This document shows, in pieces, positions 29,434-47,493 of a stretch of 64,000 nt of DNA. Numbering within the stretch: position 1 is the first letter of the stretch; every line of letters begins with the position of its first letter. Below the pieces are notes generated by a model, which was given only the letters and a program-made list of their open reading frames with translations, was not told the origin of the DNA and did no database searches. This DNA comes from a virus, in IMG/VR virus record IMGVR_UViG_3300032116_015003, positions 59,689-123,688 of that record. One strand, written 5' to 3'. The position numbers and the translations under genes were made by a program.

Positions 29434-29715
29434 CAGTGTAGCTATATAATAATTTTGATTATAATAAAATTCAATTGAATCTTGTGTTATTTTAGAAAAT
29501 ATTAAATCTTTTTTAGAAGGCAATATTTGCAATACAATATGCATATATTGCTGATTACAAATTTCATATTTTTGATTTTTTTGAGTTTTTTTACAACTAC
29601 AAAATAAACTATATTGTATAACACATGCAACAAAATCAGCAACACTGGCATCAATATTATCCAATTGATTATCAGTCAAAAATGTTTTAAATTCTCCAAT
29701 ATTATTTATTCTCAT
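29425..29715 (-). CDS. Hypothetical protein at the 3' end of the glycan cluster
   Basis: The 96-residue protein starts MRINNIGEFKTFLTDNQL and contains FCSCKKTQKN, with a Cys pair in a basic patch. It is the last gene of the long minus-strand unit, overlapping its upstream neighbour by 14 nt and the convergent DUF4338 gene by 9 nt. No family is recognised; the tight packing supports it as real. Confidence 0.5.
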   Translation of the reverse strand: MRINNIGEFKTFLTDNQLDNIDASVADFVACVIQYSLFCSCKKTQKNQKYEICNQQYMHIVLQILPSKKDLIFSKITQDSIEFYYNQNYYIATLSR

Positions 29716-30046
29716 ATCCAGTTAATTTATTATATGCCTCGTATAAATACAAACTACATATAAATATCACCGGACAGCAAATAAATGACAATTGTGCAAA
29801 AAATCCTATAATAACTGATAACCAAAACGATGTACATATTGGACATGTAATTAATCTAGTAAAAAAATTATTATAATTTACTAGTAAAAATGTATGATAT
29901 GATATCGTACAATCTTTTTCTTTGGCAATTAGATATTCTTTTACTTTTACGTAAGGCAAATGTATTAGTTTCGCGTATTCTACAAATGCTTCTGTATTGA
30001 ACCAAATTAATAATATTGAAGTTATTAAAAATATTGCAAATAACAT
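29702..30046 (-). CDS. Small membrane protein with CPIC motif
   Basis: The 114-residue protein has an N-terminal membrane helix (MLFAIFLITSILLIWF) and two more near the C-terminus. The second of these begins at LITCPICTSFWLSVIIGFF, and the third is around ICCPVIFICSLYLY. The T-C-P-x-C-x-S-F-W motif is one I associate with small phage membrane proteins found near glycosyltransferases in T4-like marine phages. It may anchor or assist glycan enzymes at the inner membrane, but this is inference. Confidence 0.6.
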   Translation of the reverse strand: MLFAIFLITSILLIWFNTEAFVEYAKLIHLPYVKVKEYLIAKEKDCTISYHTFLLVNYNNFFTRLITCPICTSFWLSVIIGFFAQLSFICCPVIFICSLYLYEAYNKLTGYENK

Positions 30047-30050
30047 ATCT

Positions 30051-30851
30051 TTAAAAAGTTATTCCATTTACAAATTTTTCCATTGGTTTATGCGAATTGG
30101 TTTTAGGATGTCTGGTTGCATGAAATCCCCACTTATAATAAAATATTTCTGCTGCATTTCTTTCGCTTTCATTAAATTTATCTCGCTCACTTCCATTTTT
30201 AGTTGAAACACTTCCGAAGTGATAGAAATTAAGTTTACGACTTCTTAAGAATTTTTTATTTATAAGTTCTAGTTTAAGAAAGAAATCCCAATCGCATATA
30301 AATGGACTGTTGAAGATTGTATCAAATCCCCCAACTGTCATGTAATCTTTCTTAGTCATAAAAAACGGGAATATTTCCCCGTCTTGTGTTAACTGATTGG
30401 ATCTATATGATGGTTCTTTTTCGCTAAATTCTTTATATCTAAAATTATCTGGTCCGCCAAAATCTCCAATTCCAAAATTAAATATGCTAGGATTTCGTTC
30501 AATTTGATTAGGCGTTATGATTGTATCATGATGAAAATCTTCAAGTAAAATTTTGTCCCATTCTACCGGAAACACATTGTCGTCGTTAACAATTAATATT
30601 TTCTCGTTTGTTGCATGAAAAACTCCAACGTTTAATGCTTGTTGCATTCCTTGATTTTCTTCAAATTCATAAAATTGTACATTTGTATTGTTGTACTTCT
30701 TTTTTAAGGAAGTATATTGTTCCGCAAATCCATCTAATACAACAATATATTGATTTTTGTTTGTTTCTCCTAATAATCCAGAATCCAAACAAATCTCAAG
30801 ACATTTTGGATTTTTATATGAAGGAATGATGATTGAAATTTGATTGTTCAT
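30051..30851 (-). CDS. Glycosyltransferase family 2
   Basis: The 266-residue protein is a GT2 enzyme with a GT-A fold. It starts with the usual SIIIPSYKNPKCLEICLDS (about 5-23), has the acidic donor-site strand EKILIVNDDNVFPVEW (NDD near residue 95) and the late ICDWDFFLKLELINK segment, where the ED/WD pair serves as base. Such enzymes extend cell-surface or protein-linked glycans. It overlaps its upstream neighbour by 4 nt (ATGA). The donor is unknown. Confidence 0.85.
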   Translation of the reverse strand: MNNQISIIIPSYKNPKCLEICLDSGLLGETNKNQYIVVLDGFAEQYTSLKKKYNNTNVQFYEFEENQGMQQALNVGVFHATNEKILIVNDDNVFPVEWDKILLEDFHHDTIITPNQIERNPSIFNFGIGDFGGPDNFRYKEFSEKEPSYRSNQLTQDGEIFPFFMTKKDYMTVGGFDTIFNSPFICDWDFFLKLELINKKFLRSRKLNFYHFGSVSTKNGSERDKFNESERNAAEIFYYKWGFHATRHPKTNSHKPMEKFVNGITF

Positions 30852-31561
30852 AATTTATTTAATATTTCAAATTCTTTTGACCAATTAACAACAGGTGACA
30901 TATATTCGTTTTCACAATGAGTTGAATAACCGGGTATAGAAGACACCAAATTAGATCCATTTTGCCAAAGATTAATAAATTTATCATGATCTCTTGTATA
31001 TCCCTTTACTAAATCACAGTATTGTGTATGCATATCATAATGTTTTTTAAACGTTGAAAATAACATTGCATATGTGTTTGTAGTTGATGGCGTAGTTCTC
31101 CAATGAGATAATTTAGTTGGATAAATAGAAGACTGTAGAGTGGAATACGCTTCATAAATATATTTATCATTGTGATCATACAATGTAAAATAATCTGCGC
31201 TTAAATTTTCAAATCCATCTATTAAAATATCTACCCAGCCTTGTCGATGAAAATAGTCATCTTCTACAAAGTATATAATATCATTTGCATTATACGGTTG
31301 TGCGATTGTATATTCAAGTAAATTTAAAAAACTTTTTCCGTCGTTTCCGCCTTTTTTTTCTACAATATTACATCGATTTTCATTGTTTAAAAAGTGCTTA
31401 CTTACATCACCATCAAACAAAACCGTTACATCAACTCTATTATCAATGGAGTTTAATAGACAATTAAAAATCTTTTCTTTGTCAAACCAACTCGGTCTAT
31501 TTTTTTTATTCGCACTATTTGCCGAAAAATTACAATGTCTAATTAATAACTTAATATTCAT
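30848..31561 (-). CDS. GT-A-type glycosyltransferase
   Basis: The 237-residue protein shows a GT-A-like order: DVTVLFDGDVSKHFLNNE, a Gly-rich NDGKSFLNLLEYTIAQPY, then the acidic motif DIIYFVEDDYFHRQGW (EDD near residue 98). VEDDY instead of DxD suggests a metal site of the GT2/GT25 kind. It belongs to the minus-strand glycan cluster and couples by ATGA overlap to the GT2 gene downstream. A 56-nt gap separates it from the gene before. Confidence 0.65.
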   Translation of the reverse strand: MNIKLLIRHCNFSANSANKKNRPSWFDKEKIFNCLLNSIDNRVDVTVLFDGDVSKHFLNNENRCNIVEKKGGNDGKSFLNLLEYTIAQPYNANDIIYFVEDDYFHRQGWVDILIDGFENLSADYFTLYDHNDKYIYEAYSTLQSSIYPTKLSHWRTTPSTTNTYAMLFSTFKKHYDMHTQYCDLVKGYTRDHDKFINLWQNGSNLVSSIPGYSTHCENEYMSPVVNWSKEFEILNKL

Positions 31562-31617
31562 AATTATTTATTTTTTTAATAAGAATGCACGTCTTTATCT
31601 AGTTTATTTATTAAAAT

Positions 31618-32325
31618 TTATTTTTTTATAATATAACATCCAGTAGGAAATCCAGAATCATCAAACGTATACTTACTATTTAAATATAATTTGTCATGTG
31701 TTATAGGATGTAAGATATAATAATCAATATTATATTTTGTAAAAAATGTTTTGATTGCGTCTAAGCTTTCAGTTAAATTCGAATCATCAAAAATAATACA
31801 TCCACCGGGCTGAACTTTATTATACATTTCATCTAATACTTCTAAAGTCGCAGAAAATGAATCCACATCAATTCTAAGTAACGCTAATTTTTCAATATTA
31901 GCACTGGGTAATGTGTCTTTTACAAATCCTTTTAAAAACGTAATTCTGGAATTATTTTGCAATCCATATTTTTCAAAATTAAATTTTACTTCTTCTAAAC
32001 TAATTCCCATTGGGCCATTTGCACAATGAGTATAAGCAGGAGTATGTCGTTCATTTAAATATTTATATCTTGCCATTTCAAGCGGTTGAAATCCTTGAAA
32101 TGAATCGCTTACCCAAATATTTCTATCATTAAACAAATAACTTAAAAATATTGAAACTCCACCTCTCCAAACTCCACATTCTAATATATCACCTTCAATT
32201 AATGAAATTTGCGGATATAAAGTTAAAATAGTTTTCATTATATTTGGATGTACCATAGTTATATTATTTAGGTAGAGATCATTAATTAATTCTTCGTAAC
32301 TGTTTATTTTTTTTGTAATAGTCAT
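31618..32325 (-). CDS. TylF/macrocin-type O-methyltransferase
   Basis: The 235-residue protein matches the TylF family, which methylates sugar hydroxyls with SAM. The SAM site is EGDILECGVWRGGVSIFL (about 39-56), followed by IWVSDSFQGFQP, ALLRIDVDSFSATLEVLD (metal/substrate acidic residues) and GGCIIFDDSNL. It lies 2 nt after the epimerase gene. Its role is probably to O-methylate a sugar in the phage-made glycan, as in 2-O- or 3-O-methyl deoxysugars. Confidence 0.85.
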   Translation of the reverse strand: MTITKKINSYEELINDLYLNNITMVHPNIMKTILTLYPQISLIEGDILECGVWRGGVSIFLSYLFNDRNIWVSDSFQGFQPLEMARYKYLNERHTPAYTHCANGPMGISLEEVKFNFEKYGLQNNSRITFLKGFVKDTLPSANIEKLALLRIDVDSFSATLEVLDEMYNKVQPGGCIIFDDSNLTESLDAIKTFFTKYNIDYYILHPITHDKLYLNSKYTFDDSGFPTGCYIIKK

Positions 32326-32327
32326 AA

Positions 32328-33323
32328 TTATTTAATTTTCCAATAAGAATAAATTCCTTTATCTAACTCAAATCGATCCCATTCAAATCGTTTTCTAGGT
32401 GGTTGTTGTTTTGCCCAATTCCACATAGTAGTTATTCCTTGTTCCAATGTATGATTTTCTTCATAACCAAGAATGTCCACTGATTTTTGCCATGTCACAT
32501 ATGCATTCTTTACTTCATGACGTGCTTCTTTAAAAGCAATATCTCCTCCACCAACAACTTTTTGCAAAATTTCGCATGCATCTTTGATACGGGTATGATG
32601 TTTACCCCCAACGTTCACAATTTGCTTTGATGCACCGGGGAGAACGGCGGCATTCCAAAATGCAGGTAAACTATCATCTATGAAGCTAAAAGCTCTAGTT
32701 TGTAAGCCGTCGCCAAATATAGTCATAGGTTCATTATTCATATATTGATACATCCAAATACCAAGAACATTACGATATTTATCCCAAATGTTTTGCTTTG
32801 CCCCATATACATTGTGTGGACGTAAAATACACCAGTCAAGTCCATGTTGTTCTCCTGCTATTTTGATATCTAATTCACATGCATACTTACTAACTCCATA
32901 TGGATCGACCGGGCAAGGTATTAATGTTTCGTCAAATGGAGGATTTTGATCACCATAAACTGCTAATGTAGAAGTAAATATTAGTCGTTTTACAGAAAAT
33001 TTGATGCAATTATTTACTATATCTGAAGTTGCGACCAAGTTGTTTTGATAATTATATTTTCTGATGAATGGACTTAAACATTCAGCCGCATATGCTGCAA
33101 AATGAAATACATATTCTGGTTGATATTGTTGAAAAATATCTTCGATATACGAAGTACCTAATTGTCTAGTAAATAACAATACTTTTTTATTGACATTCTC
33201 AATATATCCACCGCTGAAATCATCTATTCCAATTACTTTATAATCTGGATGATTTTCAACAATATAATCTGCTAAACGACTTCCTAATAAACCTCCTACA
33301 CCTGTAATAATAATGCTTTTCAT
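32328..33323 (-). CDS. NAD-dependent nucleotide-sugar epimerase/dehydratase
   Basis: The 331-residue extended SDR enzyme has the NAD-binding TGVGGLLGSRLADYI (about 7-21), the catalytic FTSTLAVYG and YGVSKYACELD (YxxxK near residue 142), and RPHNVYGAKQNI. It is closest in style to GalE-type UDP-glucose 4-epimerases. It would interconvert nucleotide sugars for the cluster. Its exact substrate is open. It is followed by TylF with a 2-nt gap and preceded by a 70-nt gap with no recognisable signal. Confidence 0.8.
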   Translation of the reverse strand: MKSIIITGVGGLLGSRLADYIVENHPDYKVIGIDDFSGGYIENVNKKVLLFTRQLGTSYIEDIFQQYQPEYVFHFAAYAAECLSPFIRKYNYQNNLVATSDIVNNCIKFSVKRLIFTSTLAVYGDQNPPFDETLIPCPVDPYGVSKYACELDIKIAGEQHGLDWCILRPHNVYGAKQNIWDKYRNVLGIWMYQYMNNEPMTIFGDGLQTRAFSFIDDSLPAFWNAAVLPGASKQIVNVGGKHHTRIKDACEILQKVVGGGDIAFKEARHEVKNAYVTWQKSVDILGYEENHTLEQGITTMWNWAKQQPPRKRFEWDRFELDKGIYSYWKIK

Positions 33324-33393
33324 AAATTTTTTAAAATATCAGAATAATTAATATCTTGAATACATAGACATTTTAACTAACGAAACTTTTTTT

Positions 33394-34533
33394 TTATTTT
33401 TTTCTCTGAATAATTGTTAATCCGTTGTTATTATCAAATTTTTCTAATAATTCCCATGTGTCGCTATTATTTTGTAAAAATTCTTGTATTGCTGGCCAAA
33501 TTCCACGCCCTGATATGTTTGAAAGAGTTTCTGAGTGTTCTGATGTCAATGGTTCGTCTCTAAATGCATATGTTGTCGTGTCATGAAAAACAATATATTT
33601 ATTTACTTTATTTGCATGTAATGCAAGTTCATTTTTAACTTGTTCATACGTATGCCATGTATCAAGAAACAACAAATCAGTTTGTTCAATGTCTATTTTT
33701 AGTACATCAGCTTCTACAAATGTAAAATCAAGATTATAATAAGCGGCAACGTCAAAAACATTTTGAATGTTTCCTCCCCATCTTGAAGGATTGTGTAAAT
33801 CGTAACTGATTAATTTTTTTGGAGCAGACCCTAAAAATGCCCATGTCGATTGTACTGCACGGACACCCATTTCTGTAATATGACTACACTCGGATGCGTA
33901 TTTTATGAGAGTTGGAATATGTTCGTTGATGTCAGATGGAGTCGAATAAATCGTATTAATTATATTTTCTAAATTATACATAGTTTTGTTTTTTATGTTA
34001 TCTATAGTTTTAAATAGCAAGCTAAAATTATTAGAGCACAATAATGGTGATATTTCATCCACATATTTTTCTTCCAATTCCCACCATTTGTATTTTAATA
34101 ATTTATCAATTATATCTTTTTCAAATCTGTACTTTATTAGTTTGGCAGGATTTCCACCAACAACTGTATATGGTGGAACATCTTTAGTTACTACCGAATT
34201 ACATGCGATACATGCGCCATCTCCAATTGTAACTCCACTCATAATTGTTACATGAGTTCCTATCCAAACATCGTTGCCTATCTTTACATTTCCTTTGGTA
34301 CTCGGATGTCCTTGTCCGTTATACTTTTTAAATGTATCAGTAGCTACATGTCCAAATGGATATGTAGTAGCCCAATCGATTCGATGATTTCCTCCTAAAT
34401 ATACTAAAATATGCCCTGAGATTGAACAATAATCGCCTATATCAAGCCATGTATTTTCTCCCCAATAATAAATTTCAATATTTTGATGTCCGTATGTGTG
34501 TTTTCCCACACTTCTAATACGATGTGTATTCAT
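33394..34533 (-). CDS. Fusion of hexapeptide acetyltransferase and methyltransferase-like domain
   Basis: The 379-residue protein joins two enzymes. Residues 1-165 form a left-handed beta-helix acyltransferase (CatB/WbbJ type): [40 protein letters not shown] and [18 protein letters not shown]. From about residue 185 a SAM-type domain follows with [47 protein letters not shown] and [10 protein letters not shown], as in cephalosporin-hydroxylase-like methyltransferases. It would acetylate and methylate sugars, perhaps the same unit. An internal Met near 186 could also give a separate methyltransferase. It overlaps the next gene by 4 nt. Confidence 0.8.
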
Positions 34534-35474
34534 AAAATTTTATTTTGTTTTGCATAAGATACCCAACGTGTTAAATACTCGCCGATATTCTTTTCAATTT
34601 CAGCACGTTGTTTATTAGCATCTATTTTTGTTTTAATAAATTTTTTATAAGACGTTTTTAATTTGCCATATCCACCGTATTCAATGTCATTTTTTAATAC
34701 TCCGGTGTCGTAAAACCATATCAATTGATTTTCTAATAAATATTCGCATACATTTACACCGTTGTCTTTTGCATATTGACATACATGTAATGAGTATAAA
34801 TCCCATGGTCCGTATCCATGCCATTCATCCAAAATAGGCACAAACTTTTCAATAAAATTTTTGTTATATAAATCAAACCATCCTGCAAATTTAAAATTAT
34901 TTAATTTTCTGATTGCAGGTTCTGCCGTTAAATTTACAAACTGATGTTCTATTTCGTGTATGTCAATATCTATACATTTGGATGTTGGTATTGTATTTAA
35001 AAACGCCGGATGTACTAATTCATCCCAGCTATTATCCCAGCATTTAAATATCTGTGGAGTAATCAAATAATAATCATCAGTAATTGTTTTTGCAGCAGCT
35101 ATCAAATAAAAAATCAAATGTTCATGAAAACTAATATCTGGACAAATATAAACGTATGCGTCTATATGAGATTCAATGGCTTCTTTTTGTAAATCAAGAT
35201 GGCCATATACAGCATTCCCATCATAAATTTTAGATCTAATTGTTGTTTTAGTTTTTAACATTTCAATGATTACATTGTATTTTTCTATAAAAAAATCTTT
35301 TTTTAATATTGAACTGTCCCAGTCTATAATACTAGAAGACAAATTTAATACCATATCTATGTAAATATGGTCTGTATTTTCTATGTAATAGAGGCTTTTT
35401 TTTAATTTATCAGCAAGTAATAGAGCATGATCAATTTCCCAAGGCATGAAATGTGTAATAATTTTAATATTCAT
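34530..35474 (-). CDS. Possible glycosyltransferase of unknown family
   Basis: The 314-residue protein begins with a strand ([20 protein letters not shown]) typical of GT-A openings. [18 protein letters not shown] follows near the middle, as a possible acidic site, then [20 protein letters not shown]. The C-terminal half is rich in Trp and Tyr ([17 protein letters not shown], then [14 protein letters not shown]), as in proteins reading sugar acceptors. I cannot place it in a known GT family. It overlaps its neighbours on both sides, inside a run of sugar enzymes. Confidence 0.5.
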
Positions 35475-36291
35475 ATAATTTTGTATAACAATTATTTATT
35501 CCATTAAATAACCCAGTCAATTGCAAATTTAAAGATTTTAGTTTTGTTCCGTCGCCTGTATAAGATAAATCCATGCCTGTATTCAACACATTAATTTTAA
35601 TTTTTTTACCTGACAAGTTATTAATATAAGTTGCTAATTCAGATAATTTGTATTTATTTTCATATACCATATTAATGTCATTTGTATAAATTGACTGATT
35701 TAATATAAATTCGACGATTTTTGATAAATCGTCTGTGTAAATAAAATCCATATATCTATCTTTATGGATAATCATTTCCGTATTATTAATATATGCATTG
35801 ATGTTATTTTTTATGAATCTTGATTGAAGTTCATTATAATTAAAACAGCCAAATAATCTTAAATTTGTTCCATTATTTTGAAGTACGCTTTTTGCTATAA
35901 TGTTTTTTGAAAGTCCATAAAAGTCAGTCGGCACATTACTAAACAGTTGCTCTTCATTATATTGATTAATATCATTGCGGCGATCAAATTCAGCACCCGA
36001 TGCAATATTAATAAAATGTTTTACCCTATATCTAAAATGAATAAGATTTTCATACATCAATAAATTGTTATAAAACACTGAGGCGGGATCGACTGCTGTT
36101 CGATTGCCTCCTTCTATTGCACAATGAATTATACTGTCAATTTTATTTTCATTTAGATATTTTTCAATACTAGAAATTGAATACAAATCAATTGTTTGTC
36201 TAGTTCCTCTAAAAAAACAAAATTTGTTGGATAGCATATTTATTATATTCGATCCAACAAATCCGTTAGCTCCTGTTATTAAAACATTCAT
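35464..36291 (-). CDS. Short extended-SDR sugar reductase/epimerase
   Basis: The 275-residue protein has the NAD(P)-binding LITGANGFVGSNIINML (about 4-20), IIHCAIEGGNRTAV in the strand 4 position, a Ser-containing NIASGAEFDRR and the catalytic FYGLSKNII (YxxxK). It is short and in the style of RmlD-type reductases or the NAD-dependent reductase (YerF) that finishes yersiniose. It directly follows the PanB-like, ThDP, dehydratase and RfbH genes, so it may reduce the branched sugar made by them. This assignment is by context. Confidence 0.7.
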   Translation of the reverse strand: MNVLITGANGFVGSNIINMLSNKFCFFRGTRQTIDLYSISSIEKYLNENKIDSIIHCAIEGGNRTAVDPASVFYNNLLMYENLIHFRYRVKHFINIASGAEFDRRNDINQYNEEQLFSNVPTDFYGLSKNIIAKSVLQNNGTNLRLFGCFNYNELQSRFIKNNINAYINNTEMIIHKDRYMDFIYTDDLSKIVEFILNQSIYTNDINMVYENKYKLSELATYINNLSGKKIKINVLNTGMDLSYTGDGTKLKSLNLQLTGLFNGINNCYTKLYEY

Positions 36292-37217
36292 TCAGTCCAA
36301 TAAAGTGATTTTTTTATCGATGCTAATTCTTCTAGTTTAATAGGATAAATATATTCTTCGGATGGATATACTTTTCCCTTTACCTCGTTATAGTAATTTT
36401 TCAAGGCAATTTGCATTAGTCGCAATACACCATCATTGCGTGTATCGATTCCATATTTCTTGACATTTTGTTGAGTTGCTAATTCTGTTTGTAAAGTATT
36501 TAATGCTTCTGGTATATAGCATTTTGCAAACCATGGTCTAAAATTTGGATAGAATCCGGCCAAATCATGCATAATAATTAATTGACCATCTACATTTTTA
36601 CCAGCACCAATTCCCATAACTGGAATTTTTAACTTTTTAGCAATTTGTTGTGCAACTGCATCTGGAACAGCTTCTAATAATAACATAGAACATCCAGCTT
36701 TTTCAATTTCTATACTATCTTCCATCATTTCTTCAAAGCTTTCCACTGTTTTTCCTTGAACTCGGTATCCTCCAAACGACACTGTACTTTGAGGAGTTAA
36801 TCCTAAATGTCCGATAACAAGAATTCCTGCATCAACAATTGCTTTAATTTTATCAGCAACACGTTTTCCGCCTTCCAATTTGATTGCATCACATGTGGCT
36901 TCTTTTGCAAATCGGATCGCATTTTTTACAGCTTCTTCTTTTGAAATTTCATATGCTCCCTGTGGCATGTCTCCGACAATAAATGTATTTGGAGCACCGC
37001 GACGAACTGCTTTAGCAAAACTAATCATTTCATCCATAGTTACTGGATTAGTTGTTTGATAACCCAATTCTACCATTCCACCAGAGTCTCCAACCAATAT
37101 CATTTCGATACCAGCATTTTCAACTGCATTTGCAAATGGATAGCTATAGGCAGTAACCCATGTAATAGGTTCACCTGCTTGTTTCATTTTGTTAAAATTA
37201 ATAATTGATTTTTTCAT
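36288..37217 (-). CDS. PanB-like ketopantoate hydroxymethyltransferase
   Basis: The 309-residue protein closely follows the PanB family, which adds a hydroxymethyl group from methylene-THF to a 2-oxoacid. The metal and catalytic residues are all present: LVGDSGG (D44), VGDMPQGAY (D83), IKLEGGKR (K113) and LLEAVPD (E182), plus the signatures GHLGLTPQS, GGYRVQGK and GIGAGKNVDGQ. The C-terminus is about 40 residues longer than in E. coli PanB. It overlaps the ThDP-enzyme gene and the SDR gene by 4 nt each. In a sugar cluster it more likely makes an unusual 2-oxoacid donor than pantothenate. Confidence 0.88.
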   Translation of the reverse strand: MKKSIINFNKMKQAGEPITWVTAYSYPFANAVENAGIEMILVGDSGGMVELGYQTTNPVTMDEMISFAKAVRRGAPNTFIVGDMPQGAYEISKEEAVKNAIRFAKEATCDAIKLEGGKRVADKIKAIVDAGILVIGHLGLTPQSTVSFGGYRVQGKTVESFEEMMEDSIEIEKAGCSMLLLEAVPDAVAQQIAKKLKIPVMGIGAGKNVDGQLIIMHDLAGFYPNFRPWFAKCYIPEALNTLQTELATQQNVKKYGIDTRNDGVLRLMQIALKNYYNEVKGKVYPSEEYIYPIKLEELASIKKSLYWTE

Positions 37218-37969
37218 AAATATTTTTCAGCTTTTAGTTCTTCATCTGACAAAAACGGATACATATCGTCCAATCCACATTGTATTGATTGTCCTGTATT
37301 TTTATCTTTCTTAAGCATTAATGTAGGCACAATTTCTTGCTCTTCTTTACATATTACCTCGCATATAATGCCTGTTTTTTTATTTAAGATATTTTTTAAA
37401 TTTTTTTTCAATTCTTGATTTGAAGTAATTTTACTATACTCCATTTCATATGTTTCTGCAACATTTTTTAATTCAGGAAACCATAATCCGTGATTGCTAT
37501 CAGTACCATATACACGCCCTTCATAAAACTTTTTCTGTGTGTTTTTGATGCTTAAATAACCGCTATTATTCCAGACAAATATTTTGATCGGCAAATTTAA
37601 ATATTTAATTGTGGCTAATTCTTGTATATTGGTATTGAAACTTCCATCTCCAGTAATCACTACAACGTTTTTTGTAGGATCTGCTAACTTTACTCCGATA
37701 GATGCTGGTAATGCAAATCCCATATCTGCCTGTGCGCCAGATAATACAAATATCTGATTATCAATCATTTTTAAATTTTGACTAGGCACATAAATTGCAC
37801 TTCCCGCATCGGACACAATTGTATCAGACGCCGACATGACATCATTTAATGTTTCAATAAAGGTATACAAATTTATACCATTTGTATCGTCTTTATAAGA
37901 TTCTTCGTAAATAGGCCATTTATTTTTCCAATATTTACATTTTTCTATCCATTTTTCTTTATTTGTCAT
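37214..37969 (-). CDS. ThDP-dependent enzyme, C-terminal half (acetolactate synthase-like)
   Basis: The 251-residue protein is the cofactor-binding half of an acetolactate-synthase-type enzyme. Its thiamine diphosphate/Mg motif is ITGDGSFNTN (G107-D108-G109-S110) followed about 25 residues later by VWNNSGY. The preamble DTIVSDAGSAIYVPSQ and SGAQADMGFALPASIGVKLA are typical of the PP domain. Its start overlaps the stop of the N-terminal half (37959) by 11 nt in another frame, so translation is probably coupled. Together they would form the active site at the subunit interface. It also overlaps the PanB-like gene. Confidence 0.88.
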   Translation of the reverse strand: MTNKEKWIEKCKYWKNKWPIYEESYKDDTNGINLYTFIETLNDVMSASDTIVSDAGSAIYVPSQNLKMIDNQIFVLSGAQADMGFALPASIGVKLADPTKNVVVITGDGSFNTNIQELATIKYLNLPIKIFVWNNSGYLSIKNTQKKFYEGRVYGTDSNHGLWFPELKNVAETYEMEYSKITSNQELKKNLKNILNKKTGIICEVICKEEQEIVPTLMLKKDKNTGQSIQCGLDDMYPFLSDEELKAEKYL

Positions 37970-38975
37970 AGTTTAAAAAATAATTTAAATCGGCATTAAT
38001 ATACTTATCAATTTTTATTGTGTTCTTTCTGTGTTCGTTATCATCAATATCGACCATGATTTTATATGAATGTGGGGAAAATAATTTTTCATCATATCCA
38101 GTGTGAGAGCAATTAAGAGAGCATCCTAAAATAAGCAATAAATTACAATTTTGTATTGCAAAATTACCTGCTCGGCTGCCTTTAATACCGATTGTTCCTA
38201 AATGTAATGGATGTCTATGACCTAAAATATCAATTCCCAAATATGAAGTAACTGTAGGAATTTGATGCTTTTCTACGAAACGTTTAAATAATTGTTTAGA
38301 ATTGCTTAATGTTATACCATATCCTGCTAAAATAAGTGGACGATCATACGATTCAATTATTGGAAGTAAATTTTTTATGGTAATTGACGAGTTGTTCAAT
38401 GTTGACTCTGGTATAAATGATTTGCATTGTGTTATGTCAATTTCCGCGTGTTGAATATCGCTCGGTATATCTAACCACACTGGTCCCATACGTCCCGATA
38501 AAGCGATATGAATAGCTTTATCTAATTCGTATGGAACATCAGTTGCATTTTCAACCATTATTGCATATTTTGTCAATGACTTGACTGTATCAATGATATT
38601 ATGTTCTTGAATTCCATATTTTCTAATAGATACGTTTTTTTCTCTGTTAATAAATAAACTAGTTTGTGTTTTTTTAACATTTCCAGATAAAAATAAAACG
38701 GGTAAGCTATCTTGCCATGCATCCAACAATGATGTAATACAATTGGTTCCACCACATCCGGTTGTAGGATTAACTACTGATAATTTGTTTGTTACTTTAC
38801 TCTCACCAACGGCAGCATGTCCTGCTCCTTGTTCATTATGAAAACAAATATAACTTATTTGTTTTTCTTTAATAAATCCGTCATTAAGCCCTGCTGCTCC
38901 ACCACCCATTAATCCATATACGTATTTAATTCCAATTTTTGCCAAACGTTGTGCTATATAGTCTGATACTCTCAT
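37959..38975 (-). CDS. ThDP-dependent enzyme, N-terminal half (acetolactate synthase-like)
   Basis: The 338-residue protein holds the pyrimidine-binding and central domains of an acetolactate-synthase-type enzyme: YVYGLMGGGAAGLNDGF (about 18-34), the catalytic glutamate in CFHNEQGAGHAA (E48), NPTTGCGGTNCITSLLDA, and MGPVWLDIPSDIQ. The cofactor-binding domain is missing and is supplied by the next gene. The enzyme would decarboxylate a 2-oxoacid and transfer the acyl unit to an aldehyde or keto group. Beside RfbH and a 4,6-dehydratase, the natural comparison is YerE, which attaches an acetyl unit to C4 of a ketosugar. Confidence 0.85.
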   Translation of the reverse strand: MRVSDYIAQRLAKIGIKYVYGLMGGGAAGLNDGFIKEKQISYICFHNEQGAGHAAVGESKVTNKLSVVNPTTGCGGTNCITSLLDAWQDSLPVLFLSGNVKKTQTSLFINREKNVSIRKYGIQEHNIIDTVKSLTKYAIMVENATDVPYELDKAIHIALSGRMGPVWLDIPSDIQHAEIDITQCKSFIPESTLNNSSITIKNLLPIIESYDRPLILAGYGITLSNSKQLFKRFVEKHQIPTVTSYLGIDILGHRHPLHLGTIGIKGSRAGNFAIQNCNLLLILGCSLNCSHTGYDEKLFSPHSYKIMVDIDDNEHRKNTIKIDKYINADLNYFLNYDK

Positions 38976-38984
38976 AAATTATAA

Positions 38985-39944
38985 TTACCAAATAAAATTA
39001 TTTCTATAATAAGATACAATATCTTTTATTTCTACATCAAAATTACATTTTGGTGTCCATCCTAAATTACGTAATTTAAAATCATTTAACGCGTATCTTA
39101 CATCCTGACCTGCGCGATGAAAACAAAAATCGATGTATTCCTCTTTATAATTAGGTTGAAATTCTTGAAAATACGCAGTTATAATTTTTTCAACCGTTAT
39201 TATATTAGATTGTTCAAATCCACCAGCAATATTATAAATTTCATTTTTTACACCAGCGTCTATGATTGTAATAATACCGTCTGCTGTATCTTTTGCATGT
39301 AACCAATTACGAATTGGTGTTCCATTATTATGCAAAGGAATTTTTCTATTAAGCTTTAAAAACTTACATGTCTTCGGAATCAATTTTTCAACATATTGAC
39401 CGATACCATAATTATTCGTAGGTCTTACAATAACATATGGAATTCCATATGTTCGTGCCCATGCTATTATTAATTGGTCAGCCGCTGCTTTTGTAGCACT
39501 ATATGGATTGCTCGGTTTTAAAATATCTGTTTCAATATGTTCTCCATCAACAATATCTCCATATACTTCATCTGTGCTGAATTGAATTAATGTAGGAGTA
39601 ATATGACCAGTACTTTTATAGTGCTTTAACAATTCGAGAATATTATATACTCCATCAATATTTGAATGAATGAAATCGTCGCTTTTACGTATTGAATTAT
39701 CAACGTGCGTTTCTGCGGCAACATTAATAAAATAATCACAGTCAATTAGACGATCTATATTACAGATATCTTGTTTTTCAAAATGAAAACGGTCTGTTGA
39801 TTCGAATTCTTTAATTAAATTTGGATCAGCTGCATATGTAATTTTATCAATTCCTTTTACATACCATCCTTTATTTAAACATGCACGGGTTACATATGAA
39901 CCGATAAATCCTAAACATCCTGTTATATAAACTATTTTAGACAT
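38985..39944 (-). CDS. NDP-glucose 4,6-dehydratase (RmlB-like)
   Basis: The 319-residue enzyme would oxidise and dehydrate a nucleotide-glucose to its 4-keto-6-deoxy form. It has YITGCLGFIGSYVTRACL (about 5-22), NVAAETHVDNSI (His/Asp loop), QFSTDEVYGD with the active-site Thr/Asp/Glu, YSATKAAADQL (YxxxK) and VRPTNNYGIGQYVEKLIPK, all as in RmlB. The ATG at 39944 lies right after the previous stop; a start at 39971 would overlap it by 26 nt. It supplies the substrate for the RfbH-type enzyme encoded just upstream. Whether it uses CDP- or dTDP-sugar is not visible. Confidence 0.9.
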   Translation of the reverse strand: MSKIVYITGCLGFIGSYVTRACLNKGWYVKGIDKITYAADPNLIKEFESTDRFHFEKQDICNIDRLIDCDYFINVAAETHVDNSIRKSDDFIHSNIDGVYNILELLKHYKSTGHITPTLIQFSTDEVYGDIVDGEHIETDILKPSNPYSATKAAADQLIIAWARTYGIPYVIVRPTNNYGIGQYVEKLIPKTCKFLKLNRKIPLHNNGTPIRNWLHAKDTADGIITIIDAGVKNEIYNIAGGFEQSNIITVEKIITAYFQEFQPNYKEEYIDFCFHRAGQDVRYALNDFKLRNLGWTPKCNFDVEIKDIVSYYRNNFIW

Positions 39945-39945
39945 A

Positions 39946-41262
39946 TTATATTGTTTTAAAAAATTTTTCAATAATCGTTTGAATATACATAATTTGTTCA
40001 GACGATATTACTGGACTTGTTCCTAAAAAGAAACTATCCGTCGTGACTTTTCTAGCATTAGGATATTTGTTAATAACATCCTGTTTATCCATAATTCCAG
40101 AATAAGCTGGTTGTAGCATAATATTACCCGCAAAATATGGGCGGGTTTGAATTTTGTTATCTTCCAAATAATTAATAATATCTTTTCTTTTAAAATTATT
40201 ATTGTTTTTAATTGTCAATGGAAATGCAAACCAACTAGGATCTGCATGTTCTGTTGCTTTTGGTAGAATGAAAAACTCTTCGTATGGTTTGAATATATCA
40301 AACAATTGTTTAAAGTTTGATTTACGTCTAGCATGTATTTCCGGCAGCTTTTTAATTTGTTCTAAACCAATTGATGCTTGTAATTCAATTGGCTTTAAAT
40401 TATATCCAATTTCGTCATACACATATTTGTGATCAAATATTTCATCTGGTAATTCTGGTAGCCAATTACTAAATCGATTTCCACAGCTTCCGTTTTTTAG
40501 TTTATTTGCTTTTAAGCCCACACAATAACATCCGCGACCCCATTCACGAAAACTACGTGTAACTATTTCTTGTATTTTTGTATTACATGCTACAAATCCA
40601 CCTTCACCCATCGTCATGTGATGCGCTGGATAAAAACTACAACTAGCTAACTCACCGAAACTGCCAAGTGGCTTGTTATTATATGTTGATCCAAGTGCAT
40701 CGCAACAATCCTCTAACAAAATTAAATTATATTGTTTTATGATTTCCATCAATCGATTCATGTTCGGCGGATTACCTAAAACGTGTGCAAATGTTATAAC
40801 TTTTGCGCCTTTTTTTGCTTGTTCTTCTACTTGATCAAGATTTAAATTTAATGTGTCCAAGTCAATATCAACAAATAAAGGTTCGAATCCAACTTGAAAA
40901 ATTGGATTTAATGTTGTAGGAAACCCAGCAATTGGGGTAATTACTTTTGTTCCTTTTGGTAAATTGTATAATCTTTTTGATGTCATTGCTAACATCATCA
41001 ATAAATTAGAACTACTTCCACTATTTGTTAATATTCCATATTCTTTACCTACTAATAATGGAAATTTATTTTCAAATGTGATTGCATCTTGCCCTAATAC
41101 TAACCATTCATTCAACAATGAATTAATTGCAGCAATATATTCTTTCTCGTCGAAAAATGGTCCTGCATATTGCACCCAATCTTTACCAGCTTCCCATTTT
41201 TTAGATGCGTGTTTTTCATTAATATATTCTTTAATTTTATTTAAAATTTCTATCATTTCCAT
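39946..41262 (-). CDS. rfbH: RfbH/E1-type nucleotide-sugar 3-dehydrase (PLP and [2Fe-2S])
   Basis: The 438-residue protein belongs to the aminotransferase fold but has SFYPAHHMTMGEGG with His (214-215) where aminotransferases hold PLP on Lys. This marks the E1/RfbH enzymes that remove the C3 hydroxyl in 3,6-dideoxysugar synthesis. The cluster cysteines follow the E1 pattern C-X57-C-X1-C: C187, C245 and C247. The last Cys (C260) is 12 instead of 7 residues on. The C-terminal half (DPSWFAFPLTIK, TRPYFAGNIMLQP) also fits. The partner reductase E3 is not in the window. ATG 41262 or 41256 is preferred over the TTG at 41283. Confidence 0.9.
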   Translation of the reverse strand: MEMIEILNKIKEYINEKHASKKWEAGKDWVQYAGPFFDEKEYIAAINSLLNEWLVLGQDAITFENKFPLLVGKEYGILTNSGSSSNLLMMLAMTSKRLYNLPKGTKVITPIAGFPTTLNPIFQVGFEPLFVDIDLDTLNLNLDQVEEQAKKGAKVITFAHVLGNPPNMNRLMEIIKQYNLILLEDCCDALGSTYNNKPLGSFGELASCSFYPAHHMTMGEGGFVACNTKIQEIVTRSFREWGRGCYCVGLKANKLKNGSCGNRFSNWLPELPDEIFDHKYVYDEIGYNLKPIELQASIGLEQIKKLPEIHARRKSNFKQLFDIFKPYEEFFILPKATEHADPSWFAFPLTIKNNNNFKRKDIINYLEDNKIQTRPYFAGNIMLQPAYSGIMDKQDVINKYPNARKVTTDSFFLGTSPVISSEQIMYIQTIIEKFFKTI

Positions 41263-41291
41263 AATATAATACGTTAGATTCAATATGTCAA
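41263..41291 (-). promoter_or_regulatory. Sigma70-like promoter TTGACA-17-TATATT inside the glycan cluster
   Basis: On the minus strand TTGACA (41291-41286), 17 nt, TATATT (41268-41263). The second Met codon of the rfbH gene (41256) is 7 nt after the -10 box, the same leaderless geometry as at 14231 and 51118. It would let the dideoxysugar genes be expressed apart from the upstream part of the cluster. Confidence 0.5.
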
Positions 41292-41300
41292 TCTATAAAT

Positions 41301-42344
41301 TTATATCGTATTTTTTATATTTTCAATCATATATTCAATTTCATTTATTTTCCAAGGATAATTATTATCGTCTGTTTGTTTTTCACTTGATATAATCTCT
41401 CCGAAATCTTCAATTGTTACGAGATTTGATTTGCTTAATGAAGCAAATTCTTTACATTTTGGAGTAAGCCACCAATTCATTTTTGGATGTTCTATCAAAT
41501 AATGTGTTGTATGCTTACTTGAAAATAGAATACCGATCACGGATGCACTTGATTGTTGTACTATTGTTTTATATGATTTAAAAATTTGAATTTTTTGTGC
41601 CATATTAAAATCCATTAACTCAATAATATCATAATTGTTACGTTTAAAGCCATCGATAAGATCAAGTTCATTTATTAATATTCTATTATGATACCATCCA
41701 CGTTTAATAGTATCCTGTCTTGAAATATACACAGATTTATTTAAATAATTTTCATTAATTGGAATATTATCTATAACCTTTCTCATCATTTTATAAATAA
41801 TATTATATCCAAATGGTTGTGGAAAATTATAAAATGAATTTGGTACTATTAAATTTTTAAATTTATATCGTTTATCATGGTCGATAACATAAATATTAAT
41901 ATTTGGATAATACAATTGCATCCACTCTTTTATAAAAGTTGCGCGGCCTGTATTATGATATAACTCAGCGGGAATGTATAATTTAATATTCGTCTGTTTT
42001 ATCAATTCATCGTAATAATGACATTTACCAAAAAAACAAAAGAAAAAATGAATATAATTTAGTCCAGCAGGATCTTGTAATAAAAACGACGGTTCATCAA
42101 CTAACACGTCATAGGATTCATTACTATTAACAATATTGTTGTCATATAGTAATCTATGATCACCAATCATTTGTGTATGTTTGTCGATGCCACCTATTAC
42201 TTTCTTGTGATTATGAAATACTTCTAAATTACAGTCCTCACCTCTCGGGTGCAAAATATAAATATTCTTATATTCAATGCAAAACTCACGGTTTTTGTTT
42301 ATAGTTGATTCGGGAATATCGAAAAAAAGAATACGTGAACTCAT
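41301..42344 (-). CDS. Glycosyltransferase family 61-like protein
   Basis: The 347-residue protein fits the GT61/DUF563 layout. The C-terminal half has NKSVYISRQDTIKRGWYHNR (about 203-222), NELDLIDGFKRNNYDIIELM, then KSYKTIVQQSSASVIGILFS in the place of the usual hGAgl loop, and TTHYLIEHP. GT61 enzymes transfer xylose or GlcNAc-type sugars. The N-terminal half is unassigned. It overlaps the trifunctional gene upstream by 4 nt and ends before the promoter of the rfbH gene. Confidence 0.65.
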   Translation of the reverse strand: MSSRILFFDIPESTINKNREFCIEYKNIYILHPRGEDCNLEVFHNHKKVIGGIDKHTQMIGDHRLLYDNNIVNSNESYDVLVDEPSFLLQDPAGLNYIHFFFCFFGKCHYYDELIKQTNIKLYIPAELYHNTGRATFIKEWMQLYYPNINIYVIDHDKRYKFKNLIVPNSFYNFPQPFGYNIIYKMMRKVIDNIPINENYLNKSVYISRQDTIKRGWYHNRILINELDLIDGFKRNNYDIIELMDFNMAQKIQIFKSYKTIVQQSSASVIGILFSSKHTTHYLIEHPKMNWWLTPKCKEFASLSKSNLVTIEDFGEIISSEKQTDDNNYPWKINEIEYMIENIKNTI

Positions 42345-44203
42345 ATTAAATAATGTATTAAATTGTAATAATCTTCACACTTTGCATCATTATGCAGTGG
42401 TATTAATGTGAATAATAAACTCGCCGTCAATGCTTTCAAATGCTTTAATTGTTCTGTTCCATGCAACTCTACAAAACACTTTTCAAAATAAGAAATTAAT
42501 GGAGAACAATATGAAAAAGATATTGGTTTTGAATTTAAAATAAAATCATATCCAATTAGAGATTGATATATTTTTGCATAATCATAAAAAGAATCGCCGT
42601 AAATTGTATATGTATTTCCTAACTTTCCGCGCATATCTATAAATTGTAAACTATTATTTTTTACAAATATATTTGAAAATACACAATCTCCATGAATTAA
42701 TGATAAATTACCTCCATTCATTTTTTCATAATTAAAAAGTTTTTCTTTAAGAGAATTGAAAACAATGTTTGAATTTTTAAATTTAGTGTAATTATAATTA
42801 TCAAATCTGGATATCAGTTTATTGTAATAATTATCATAAATATTGTTGTTAAACTGATCTGGAACAATTGAGTGTAGTTGCTTTAGTGATTTGAATAACA
42901 AATCGATATGAGTGGTTGTAAGCTCTTTGTGAGCATACATTGTAGAAAACAATGTTCCATCAATCTTTTCAATTTCTAATTCGTTTTCACCATTTGTTGA
43001 GATTAACTTTGGAAATAGATGTGAAACTATATTTGGTATATTTTTGTAATAATAAATTTCACCACTCAACGATTTTGTTGATGTTTTAACAATGCTATTT
43101 TCTTTAACTTGAATTTGATTATAAGAACGAGGAGTAACTGAATTAATGTAAAATCCGGTAGATTTTTCAAGATTTGCACGGGCATTGATTGCTAAATCAT
43201 CAATATAAAAATCTGCATGCGGCTTTCCAAAACATAATTCATCGTACTGTATGTTATATTTTTCTAGTGTATTAAAAGTAATAATTCCCACGTCCTTTAA
43301 AATTTTAGACACATTTCCACTATAAGTTCTCATTCGCCGTGCCGTGTAAATTATAATATAATGACCTTGGTTTTTCAAATGATTAAGAAAGTCAATATTT
43401 TTTTGTATTGGCTCAACCGTTGTATAATCATCTGTTTTTTGAGGATATGTAACTAATGTATTATCCAAATCAAAACAAAAGCGTAATTGTTTTTGTGTAG
43501 AATTTTGGCTGCAAAAATCCATTACTTGTAATGGAGTGCCCAAACATACATAATTATTTTTTTCAATATATTTTCCGACAACATATTGTTTATCTTCAAT
43601 CATCTTTTGATATACATGTGAAATGTAAATTTCGTTCAATGTCTGATCACATTTCATTGCGTATGATTGAAATAATTTCGCATTTTTAAATACATAACAA
43701 CCAATATTTGCGTTGTCTGAAATCTTTACTTTTTCTTTGATATCAATAATTTGATTTTCGTTTAGTTTAATATAACTGAATAGTGGAGTTGGTGTCTTAT
43801 CGATTGTATAATAAATTTCATTATTTGAAGAATCTCTATCAAATTTGTTGTTTTTGATAAATGAATCTCCATCATGAATAATTATTTTTTCATCCAAAAT
43901 ATGGTCGGGTAGTTTAGACAATCCGTACAAAATTGTTTCCACAGGTCCAGAAGTTTGATACGGCAACTTGATGAAATTAAACTTTATATTTTTATATTCT
44001 TTTTGAAGAATGTCTTGAAAGTTATAATGATCTAAAATATAATTATATATAATAGTAACACAATCATCAGTTGAAATATTTAACGAATCAATGACCCATG
44101 TAATGATTGGCTTTCCCAAGACATTTGTTAATATTTTTGGAAAATGGTAGTCTTCAGATTTGAATCTTTCTCCTTTTCCACCTAACGGTATAACAATATT
44201 CAT
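42341..44203 (-). CDS. Three-domain protein: nucleotidyltransferase, HAD phosphatase, kinase-like
   Basis: The 620-residue protein joins three activities. Residues 1-235 are a sugar/choline-phosphate nucleotidyltransferase (IPLGGKGERF, PKILTNVLGKPII, then HDGDSFI as metal site). About 245-365 is a HAD phosphatase (CFDLDNTLVTYPQK, IIYTARRMRTYSG, FYIDDLAINA). About 400-600 resembles APH/choline kinases (LSLIHGDCVFSNIFVKN, QFIDMRGKLG). Together they could phosphorylate, activate and recycle a small alcohol or sugar, such as a glycerol- or choline-type substituent for the glycan. I chose ATG 44203 because the longer frame overlaps the preceding gene. The real substrate is unknown. Confidence 0.8.
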   Translation of the reverse strand: MNIVIPLGGKGERFKSEDYHFPKILTNVLGKPIITWVIDSLNISTDDCVTIIYNYILDHYNFQDILQKEYKNIKFNFIKLPYQTSGPVETILYGLSKLPDHILDEKIIIHDGDSFIKNNKFDRDSSNNEIYYTIDKTPTPLFSYIKLNENQIIDIKEKVKISDNANIGCYVFKNAKLFQSYAMKCDQTLNEIYISHVYQKMIEDKQYVVGKYIEKNNYVCLGTPLQVMDFCSQNSTQKQLRFCFDLDNTLVTYPQKTDDYTTVEPIQKNIDFLNHLKNQGHYIIIYTARRMRTYSGNVSKILKDVGIITFNTLEKYNIQYDELCFGKPHADFYIDDLAINARANLEKSTGFYINSVTPRSYNQIQVKENSIVKTSTKSLSGEIYYYKNIPNIVSHLFPKLISTNGENELEIEKIDGTLFSTMYAHKELTTTHIDLLFKSLKQLHSIVPDQFNNNIYDNYYNKLISRFDNYNYTKFKNSNIVFNSLKEKLFNYEKMNGGNLSLIHGDCVFSNIFVKNNSLQFIDMRGKLGNTYTIYGDSFYDYAKIYQSLIGYDFILNSKPISFSYCSPLISYFEKCFVELHGTEQLKHLKALTASLLFTLIPLHNDAKCEDYYNLIHYLI

Positions 44204-44204
44204 A

Positions 44205-44879
44205 TTATAATTTAAATCCAAAATTTTCTTCTTGTGAAAAAATTGCATTATATTTCAAATTGGTCGCAATTTGTTTTTCAATAGTTTTATTGTGATGTAA
44301 TGCAAATTCGTATTCATATGGCAAGTGGCTATATGTTTTTGCACCTTCAATTTTTTCATGCAATCTACGCTCCCATTTCATATATGAAACATTTTTAAAA
44401 AGACGCCCTTGCGGATCTGGCCAATTAACAATCAATCTGTTTTCAAATGGAGTTAATCTCCAACCCCATTGTTTTGCATTATCTGGATTTACACCTATAA
44501 AATCATTAATACGAGGAATCCAATATAAATCTATATCAGGATTTGTGTCTAATATAAGTTTGATGTTTTCCAATAAAAATATAGATGGTAATTCATCAGC
44601 ATCAATTTGGAATATGTATTTTCCTTTACACAATGATTTACCATAATTTTTATGTTCGCTATAGTTTTTATTTAGCGCATGTTTATGTAACTGAAAAAAG
44701 CCGCCACCTGTATTTACTGCGTCTTGCAATATTTGAACAGTGGCGGCATCATCACTATAATCATCAAGTATTATACATTCGCCGTCGTCTTTGTATTTAA
44801 AAAGACGTTCCAATAAAGGTTTTATTTGCATACCTTCATTCTTGCATGTTACTAAATATGATACAAATGGTAATGACAT
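44205..44879 (-). CDS. Glycosyltransferase family 2
   Basis: The 224-residue GT2 protein starts MSLPFVSYLVTCKNEGMQIK and contains ECIILDDYSDDAAT (first Asp site), KGKYIFQIDADELPSIFL (DAD, donor metal site near 99) and a conserved RLFKNVSYMKWERRLHEKI with the W-x-x-x-H-E-type segment of SunS/WaaE-like enzymes. That group often adds heptose or glucose to core oligosaccharides or peptides. ATG 44879 follows the previous stop directly. It lies within the minus-strand glycan cluster. Confidence 0.85.
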   Translation of the reverse strand: MSLPFVSYLVTCKNEGMQIKPLLERLFKYKDDGECIILDDYSDDAATVQILQDAVNTGGGFFQLHKHALNKNYSEHKNYGKSLCKGKYIFQIDADELPSIFLLENIKLILDTNPDIDLYWIPRINDFIGVNPDNAKQWGWRLTPFENRLIVNWPDPQGRLFKNVSYMKWERRLHEKIEGAKTYSHLPYEYEFALHHNKTIEKQIATNLKYNAIFSQEENFGFKL

Positions 44880-44880
44880 A

Positions 44881-45435
44881 TTATGTATTAGTATATACCC
44901 AACAATATTCTTGACTATGTAGTTTGCTTCGGTTTTCGTAAAAAAACTCATTTACCGCCTGTTCTACCCCATAATGGCCATCATAATAATCGTGTCCGGC
45001 AATAATTCCATTTTTCTTTAGTTTTGGGAACCAAGCATGTAAATCTTCTTTAACACACTCGTAATCATGACATGCATCGATAAAAATGAAATCAAGACTT
45101 TCATTTTGAAACAGTTTAGATGCATTCACAGAATAATCTTTAATAATGTTAAGATTGTCTTTTAATTTCTCTTTAATTGGTTCGATATTTTTACAAAACA
45201 GATCGTATGACGGATACCCATTTGGATTATTAAGATCCACATCCGTCCATGTATCAATAAGATTTAGTTTAATATTTTTGTTTCGATTAATAATTTCCAC
45301 ACCAATAAAGCATGCGCTTTGCCCACAATCACATCCAATTTCTACAAATTCCGCATTATCAAATCGTGTTACCATTTCAAAATATAATGCAGGAAACGTA
45401 AATGCACCTCTTACATTTTTATAATAATGTTCCAT
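44881..45435 (-). CDS. Class I SAM-dependent methyltransferase
   Basis: The 184-residue protein has the SAM loop AEFVEIGCDCGQSACFIG (about 28-45), IKLNLIDTWTDVD (acidic end of strand 2), LDFIFIDACHDYECVKEDL and GIIAGHDYYDGHYG. These are the marks of Methyltransf_24-type enzymes. In this setting it probably methylates a sugar. It abuts the GT2 gene downstream (1-nt gap) and follows the GT4 gene by 5 nt. The target is not readable. Confidence 0.8.
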   Translation of the reverse strand: MEHYYKNVRGAFTFPALYFEMVTRFDNAEFVEIGCDCGQSACFIGVEIINRNKNIKLNLIDTWTDVDLNNPNGYPSYDLFCKNIEPIKEKLKDNLNIIKDYSVNASKLFQNESLDFIFIDACHDYECVKEDLHAWFPKLKKNGIIAGHDYYDGHYGVEQAVNEFFYENRSKLHSQEYCWVYTNT

Positions 45436-45440
45436 AGTAT

Positions 45441-47452: not shown

Positions 47453-47460
47453 GGATTGAT

Positions 47461-47489
47461 ATCCTATTGTATAAAAAATATCGTGTCAA
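47461..47489 (-). promoter_or_regulatory. Sigma70-like promoter TTGACA-17-TAGGAT for dUTPase
   Basis: On the minus strand TTGACA (47489-47484), 17 nt, TAGGAT (47466-47461). The dUTPase ATG at 47452 lies 9 nt beyond the -10 box, so the leader would be absent or only about 2 nt. Confidence 0.45.
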
Positions 47490-47493
47490 TTTT

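Follow-up and report, generated by a model that had tools for sequence, protein, structure and literature searches.

A cassette of six minus-strand genes in viral DNA from IMG/VR (record IMGVR_UViG_3300032116_015003) probably encodes a pathway to a 3,6-dideoxysugar branched at C4, in which a PanB-like protein would make the acyl donor for a YerE-like thiamine diphosphate (ThDP) enzyme. The window, i.e., the whole stretch of 64,000 nucleotides that was analysed, corresponds to bases 59689-123688 of the 123,688-bp record, which may itself be incomplete. The cassette occupies positions 35464-41283 of the window and is part of a larger glycan operon. From the RfbH-type 3-dehydrase to the short-chain dehydrogenase/reductase (SDR), the spacing between neighbouring genes in the list of open reading frames (ORFs) is -26 to +9 nt, negative values being overlaps. 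The original prediction, made from the letters of the sequence, had placed this gene set at 35464-41291. All of the families are there and tightly packed, but the RfbH ORF starts at 41283, with TTG, and not at 41291. The central proposal, that the genes make up one C4-branching deoxysugar pathway with PanB as the partner of the ThDP enzyme, was strengthened, as the pair recurs in phages and bacteria.

In the proposed pathway, the RmlB-like enzyme would form a nucleoside diphosphate (NDP)-4-keto-6-deoxyglucose, probably with deoxythymidine diphosphate (dTDP) as the nucleotide, and the RfbH-like enzyme would take off O3 with electrons delivered by ferredoxin or flavodoxin reductases of the host. 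The PanB-subfamily enzyme would hydroxymethylate a small 2-oxoacid and so extend it by one carbon; with pyruvate, the most likely substrate, the product would be 4-hydroxy-2-oxobutanoate. The two-chain YerE-like ThDP enzyme would decarboxylate this 2-oxoacid and attach the resulting acyl group at the C4 ketone. Finally, the SDR would reduce the new ketone, and the glycosyltransferases of the operon would attach the finished sugar. The protein families, the active-site residues, the affinity to YerE, and the pairing of PanB with the ThDP gene are read from the sequence. We infer the reaction order, the substrate and product of PanB, the nucleotide, the electron donor of RfbH, the target of the SDR, and the final acceptor.

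PanB and its ThDP partner

The gene at 36288-37217 (minus strand) encodes a class II aldolase/hydroxymethyltransferase of a PanB subfamily, which resembles ketopantoate hydroxymethyltransferase (KPHMT) and is the proposed supplier of the 2-oxoacid donor. It matches PF02548 (E=3e-95) and TIGR00222 (284 bits; cut-off 207.6). Its AlphaFold2 (AF2) model has a predicted local distance difference test (pLDDT) score of 92.6 and fits E. coli KPHMT (1m3u) with a template modelling (TM) score of 0.95 by target length. The catalytic residues were already described as intact, and all seven residues compared are indeed kept: D45, S46, D84, K112, E114, H136, and E181 of E. coli correspond to D44, S45, D83, K113, E115, H137, and E182. 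These catalytic and metal-binding positions are invariant in 33 of the 33 subfamily members, a clade of 15 viral and 18 cellular sequences with a support of 98 in the Shimodaira–Hasegawa-like approximate likelihood ratio test (SH-aLRT). The signature of the subfamily is Leu at position 212 and Ile at position 214 (E. coli numbering); in other PanBs, both are mostly Val. In E. coli KPHMT, substitutions at positions 202, 212, and 214 change the range of nucleophiles accepted (PMC7610986).

The subfamily gene is not the only panB in many genomes. A second PanB occurs in 16 of the 22 cellular genomes that have a subfamily gene; it mostly spans the whole Pfam model, whereas the match of the subfamily gene ends near position 234. 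Judged by its separate clade and by a gene context without pantothenate genes, the subfamily PanB is distinct from the biosynthetic enzyme. At E<=1e-120, it was found in only 2 of 295 genomes of the order that includes the bacterial locus L034, and no named isolate with a subfamily PanB stood out among the phage and plasmid matches listed.

The ThDP enzyme is distributed over two minus-strand ORFs. The N half (37959-38975; PF02776, TPP_enzyme_N, and PF00205, TPP_enzyme_M) contains the PYR and central domains with the catalytic Glu48, and the C half (37214-37969; PF02775, TPP_enzyme_C, E=2e-32) contains the PP domain with the ThDP-binding GDG motif (GDGSF from ORF residue 107). Across the two ORFs, the set of domains and motifs is complete. 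The AF2 model of the N half has a pLDDT of 88.7, and its top PDB fold is JanthE (8rph/8rpi; TM 0.84-0.85). Neither this model nor that of PanB revealed the unusable active site that had been named as evidence against the pathway. When the halves were joined in silico, JanthE 8rph was matched with 311 bits over residues 2-581, PpYerE with 238, and the best acetolactate synthase with 212. For a fused homologue in the compared sequence L004, the scores were 399 bits for JanthE (8rph), 267 for PpYerE, and 260 for a plant acetolactate synthase. The structures of JanthE are 8rph/8rpj (PMC12188165). On these comparisons, the pair is YerE-like and nearer JanthE than acetolactate synthase. The two-gene enzyme described originally is real, but its likeness to acetolactate synthase is the weaker one. 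The RmlB and RfbH genes, which would provide a 4-keto-deoxysugar acceptor, lie next to the ThDP pair.

Automatic annotation names these genes panB and acetolactate synthase, as would be expected of an auxiliary vitamin or amino-acid set that raises valine, pantothenate, or coenzyme A (CoA) in the host, and a viral pantoate transferase has been interpreted as a CoA booster (PMC8940887). We consider this explanation almost certainly wrong for the cassette. The genes sit in a sugar operon, and their bacterial counterparts adjoin RfbF, RfbG, and RfbH, with the second PanB located elsewhere. PanC (pantoate ligase), ketopantoate reductase, and IlvD were not found in the record, and the ThDP enzyme is nearer JanthE and YerE-like; for these reasons, the reading as a vitamin or valine auxiliary metabolic gene (AMG) set was rejected.

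The association of PanB with a ThDP gene extends well beyond the window. The viral sample consisted of 23 contigs from scans with PanB alignments; a further PanB contig, L141, was left out. A YerE-like ThDP gene lies near PanB in 22 of these contigs, and the exception, L139, is a short contig. All viral subfamily PanBs (15/15) have a same-strand ThDP gene within 2.5 kb, and 7 of the 8 more distant viral PanBs have one nearby. A terminase was present on 8 of 24 records tested (the record of the window, L011, L015, L018, L131, L132, L137, and L140). Among cellular PanBs, a ThDP gene lies no more than 2.5 kb away in 12 cases, namely 8 of the 18 in the window's clade and four of a neighbouring clade. 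No such neighbour was seen for PanBs that do not have the L212/I214 signature (0/43). The association of signature and ThDP neighbour has a Fisher p of 4e-11 overall and 3e-6 for the cellular loci only; these values ignore relatedness and are descriptive.

A search for the same gene order elsewhere had been proposed, and the PanB-ThDP pair was found in both phages and bacterial loci. A 587-kb Gemmatimonadetes contig (L069) carries RfbG (cytidine diphosphate (CDP)-glucose 4,6-dehydratase), RfbH, PanB, the ThDP gene, and an epimerase/SDR in a row. In a Bacteroidales locus (L034), RfbF (glucose-1-phosphate cytidylyltransferase), RfbH, and RfbG are followed 6-7 kb further by an epimerase, PanB, and the ThDP gene. 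In Omnitrophota (L053), RfbF is found with RfbH, PanB, and the ThDP gene, adjoining the Wzm/Wzt export genes. Where scored, the RfbF, RfbG, and RfbH of the bacterial loci are above the curated cut-offs. Because these enzymes are present, the acceptor in the bacterial loci is very probably CDP-4-keto-3,6-dideoxyglucose; for the phage, its dTDP counterpart is the likelier acceptor. The pairing of a subfamily PanB and a ThDP gene with RfbH and CDP-glucose enzymes in bacteria means that the pathway is not restricted to phages, and the idea of a phage-specific module had to be given up.

Radical SAM genes are further neighbours of PanB. A B12-binding radical SAM gene lies directly upstream of PanB or the PanB-ThDP pair in divergent phage contigs (L131:4413-5945, L134:4368-5858, and L136:4306-5826) and in an Elusimicrobia genome (L045:7928-9745), and PanB has radical SAM/SPASM genes beside it in L006 and L041 as well. 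These neighbours suggest an extra C-methylation or rearrangement of the side chain.

The proposed donor and its alternatives

The best guess for the product of PanB, held tentatively and at somewhat less than an even chance, is 4-hydroxy-2-oxobutanoate; ketopantoate-like or longer donors remain candidates. The guess is based on the combination of the second PanB, the residues at 212/214, the chemistry of KPHMT with formaldehyde, the donors of ErwE, and the metY/metX context of one PanB gene. E. coli KPHMT catalyses the addition of 2-oxoacids to formaldehyde (PMC10127515). The YerE-like enzyme ErwE uses 4-hydroxy-2-oxobutanoate together with CDP-4-keto-3,6-dideoxyglucose, which is also the acceptor of YerE (PMC12247030). 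At L050:1067-4367, a subfamily PanB that has no ThDP neighbour is found together with metY and metX. Homoserine is the amino-acid counterpart of 4-hydroxy-2-oxobutanoate, and this context is a weak pointer to the four-carbon homoserine skeleton. Another subfamily PanB with no ThDP neighbour lies beside a methionine gamma-lyase-like gene at L047:9986-12657, and L048 is similar. Both kinds of neighbours hint at a homoserine or 2-oxobutyrate link. In its widest form, the proposal is that the subfamily could be a new pyruvate hydroxymethyltransferase (4-hydroxy-2-oxobutanoate synthase) that phages and several bacterial phyla have recruited to provide one-carbon-extended donors for YerE-like enzymes. 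Branching of this kind would yield a 4-C-(3-hydroxypropanoyl)- or 4-C-(1,3-dihydroxypropyl)-3,6-dideoxyhexose, a sugar not described before. This is a candidate role that we advance with reserve.

The same pathway might operate with PanB acting on the classical 2-oxoisovalerate or on 2-oxobutyrate, in which case the ThDP enzyme would transfer a 3-hydroxy-2,2-dimethylpropanoyl or 3-hydroxy-2-methylpropanoyl group. This would agree with the catalytic residues of PanB, every one of which is the same as in the canonical enzyme, with the acceptance of longer and branched 2-oxoacids by JanthE (PMC12247030, PMC12188165), and with the methionine gamma-lyase-like gene of L047 as a possible source of 2-oxobutyrate. 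However, the residues at 212/214, which bear on nucleophile scope, are unlike those of most other PanBs, and the second PanB is kept in most of the cellular genomes (16/22). A substrate of either kind is unlikely, though it deserves to be kept in mind. PanB could also be an aldolase for another aldehyde, such as acetaldehyde or a small hydroxyaldehyde, and make a longer 4-hydroxy-2-oxoacid, e.g., 4-hydroxy-2-oxopentanoate, for an erwiniose-like branch. Acetaldehyde, lactaldehyde, and aldoses are electrophiles for E. coli KPHMT (PMC7610986), and ErwE uses 4-hydroxy-2-oxopentanoate and -hexanoate (PMC12247030). Nevertheless, family searches revealed no aldehyde-producing gene in the cassette, and it is simpler to assume the one-carbon chemistry typical of the family, which makes a longer donor improbable.

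PanB might instead act after the ThDP enzyme, hydroxymethylating the methyl ketone of a 4-C-acetyl sugar, or it might act on the 4-keto sugar itself. The PanB family makes enolates beside a carbonyl, and the order of reactions is not fixed by the order of genes. On the other hand, PanB retains all of the canonical 2-oxoacid active-site residues, and its pairing with the ThDP gene persists in loci that lack RfbH and have other sugar genes. We regard such a late action of PanB as very improbable.

The reading of PanB as the donor maker within a complete dideoxysugar pathway has to be weighed against several observations. The neighbour counts are not independent, as several contigs are near-identical. 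The change at 212/214 is modest and tracks phylogeny, and E. coli itself has I212/V214. The signature is carried by 17 cellular PanBs that have no nearby ThDP gene; the link of the subfamily to ThDP enzymes is hence not an exclusive one. In the ThDP subclade of the window, PanB accompanies 5 of 6 members, but the cassettes of L017, whose ThDP N half is 72% identical to that of the window, and of the sister clade L018-L033 have no PanB; a search of nine records with such cassettes did not find it elsewhere on them. For this reason, this ThDP enzyme can evidently use another donor. Furthermore, in the record, which is possibly a fragment, neither a clear glucose-1-phosphate nucleotidyltransferase nor an E3 reductase was found (no Fer2 and no NAD_binding_1 across its 123,688 bp), the latter in agreement with what was first reported. 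In some of the PanB-less phage cassettes, a class I/II aminotransferase gene lies between RfbH and the ThDP N half (L018:8845-10014, with equivalents in L019-L026; C15 family). It might supply the donor 2-oxoacid in place of PanB, the match giving class I/II only and no specificity.

The ThDP split, the deoxysugar enzymes, and the operon

In a tree of 41 ThDP sequences, the 17 with a split gene group together in one clade (support 100), which is nested among fused, PanB-linked sequences. This recurrence rules out a sequencing artefact. Within the sample, the split appears to be one derived event in a phage clade. Since the split clade nests among fused relatives, the division into two genes, originally presented as part of the pathway, is present in the window but is not essential to it. 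The two genes overlap by 11 nt in the window and by 4-23 nt across the split relatives, and the C half begins with an ATG or TTG of its own; for these reasons, the junction looks like a case of translational coupling. A programmed frameshift is considered unlikely, as the C frame is +1 and a -1 slip on TTTTTTA would not bring the two frames together. The junction (37959-37990) is T-rich and TTTTTTA-like in several split relatives.

The gene at 39946-41283 (minus strand) encodes the RfbH/E1-type NDP-4-keto-6-deoxyglucose 3-dehydrase, which depends on pyridoxamine 5'-phosphate and a [2Fe-2S] cluster (PRK15407, 467.7 bits; cut-off 423). The nearest PDB entries are 3bcx/3bb8 (E1; 349 bits). As had been noticed, His replaces the Lys that binds pyridoxal 5'-phosphate (H221, aligned to E1 3bcx), and the Fe-S cysteines are kept. 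All four are present (C194, C252, C254, and C267), assigned by comparison with the [2Fe-2S] ligands of E1. His221 and the four cysteines are conserved across nearly all of the RfbH homologues examined; by alignment, the last cysteine follows after X12, a spacing that exceeds that of E1 by five residues. Because no E3 was found in the record, host reductases would be the electron source. A precedent is SpnQ, which resembles E1 and is served by general reductases of the host. An ORF of the same phage at L115:17454-17879 (record bases 17454-17879) resembles an IscU/NifU-like Fe-S scaffold by eye and might serve the RfbH cluster.

The 4,6-dehydratase gene (38985-39971, minus strand) has a TTG start, with the real start likely an ATG at 39944. 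Its product matches TIGR01181 with 294.8 bits (E=7e-88), under the model cut-off of 365, and the CDP-type model TIGR02622 with only 67.7 bits (E=9.5e-19). The nearest PDB entry is 2hun, and the STDEVYG and YSATK motifs are aligned. The RmlB-like enzyme is thus present as described, with the correction that it is here predicted to be of the dTDP type and not the CDP-glucose type (RfbG). The Epimerase/RmlD-like SDR at 35464-36291 (minus strand; PF01370, E=5e-20) is the proposed ketoreductase for the side chain or the sugar; it has a homologue in most related cassettes, both with and without PanB.

Judged by gene order, gaps, and families, the entire glycan operon spans 29425-49293 on the minus strand and includes glycosyltransferases, methyltransferases, an acetyltransferase, and an epimerase. 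On the same strand, a GT61-type glycosyltransferase gene (41301-42344; PF04577, E=5e-10) has a 45% homologue at the equivalent place in L004. A fused gene at 42341-44248 (minus strand) combines a nucleotidyltransferase (PF00483), a HAD phosphatase (Hydrolase_3; EcbF-BcbF, TIGR01689, E=3e-20), and a C-terminal part that resembles a small-molecule kinase by eye. It has a 46% homologue in L004 and may feed another NDP-sugar of the operon. Directly downstream of the SDR, with an 11-nt overlap, lies a minus-strand gene (34530-35474) whose product gave no match in a Pfam search; a 47% homologue adjoins the cassette in L004. A dUTPase-like ORF, recognized by eye, stands between glycosyltransferase genes at 46739-47452.

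The terminase is about 54% identical to those of Flavobacterium phage 'immuto' and Microcystis phage Mel-JY01, and the closest DNA polymerase is that of Mel-JY01. UvsX, DnaB, and clamp-loader families are also encoded, and by its genes the phage is classed as T4-like. A host in Bacteroidota is plausible. A flavoprotein-like ORF at L116:7107-7895 had no Pfam match.

Meaning and comparison with known systems

If the proposed role is true, PanB would be a donor-making enzyme for sugar branching. The module is common to phages and distant bacteria and can therefore be tested outside the phage. The viral pantoate transferase gene (panB) was the most abundant vitamin AMG in the virome of an oxygen-minimum zone and was taken there to raise CoA (PMC8940887). 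For at least part of these viral panB genes, the vitamin label may be a misreading and the true role one in sugar synthesis. If the subfamily turns pyruvate into 4-hydroxy-2-oxobutanoate, it would, in addition, provide a natural enzyme for a reaction that has been looked for in the design of synthetic formaldehyde assimilation. PanB as a donor maker for sugar branching was not found in the literature covered, which excluded key ErwE papers and a survey of YerE-like gene clusters.

The closest solved structure to the ThDP pair, by both sequence and fold, is that of JanthE from Janthinobacterium (8rph/8rpi/8rpj), which is a single chain with a CDG motif, whereas the window enzyme is split and has GDG. 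PanB shares its fold and seven of seven checked catalytic and metal residues with E. coli KPHMT (1m3u). It differs in its separate clade, an insert of about 30 residues near 240-268, a C-terminal tail, Q86 in place of F87, and Leu/Ile at 212/214; moreover, the subfamily co-occurs with a YerE-like gene, and many genomes hold a second PanB. The erwiniose pathway of Pectobacterium likewise has a YerE-like enzyme, ErwE, that needs a 4-hydroxy-2-oxoacid donor, including 4-hydroxy-2-oxobutanoate (PMC12247030). The yersiniose A pathway of Yersinia pseudotuberculosis has the same 4,6-dehydration, E1/RfbH-type 3-deoxygenation, YerE-like acyl transfer to C4, and ketoreduction. Its CDP-glucose 4,6-dehydratase (RfbG) is not in the window but is present in the bacterial loci L034 and L069, and the phage, in which no E3 was found, adds a PanB-subfamily gene, an RmlB dTDP-type dehydratase, and a two-chain ThDP enzyme. 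The pathway is a new variant of the yersiniose (YerE)-type route to branched sugars, common to phages and bacteria, with a PanB paralogue as the probable donor maker.

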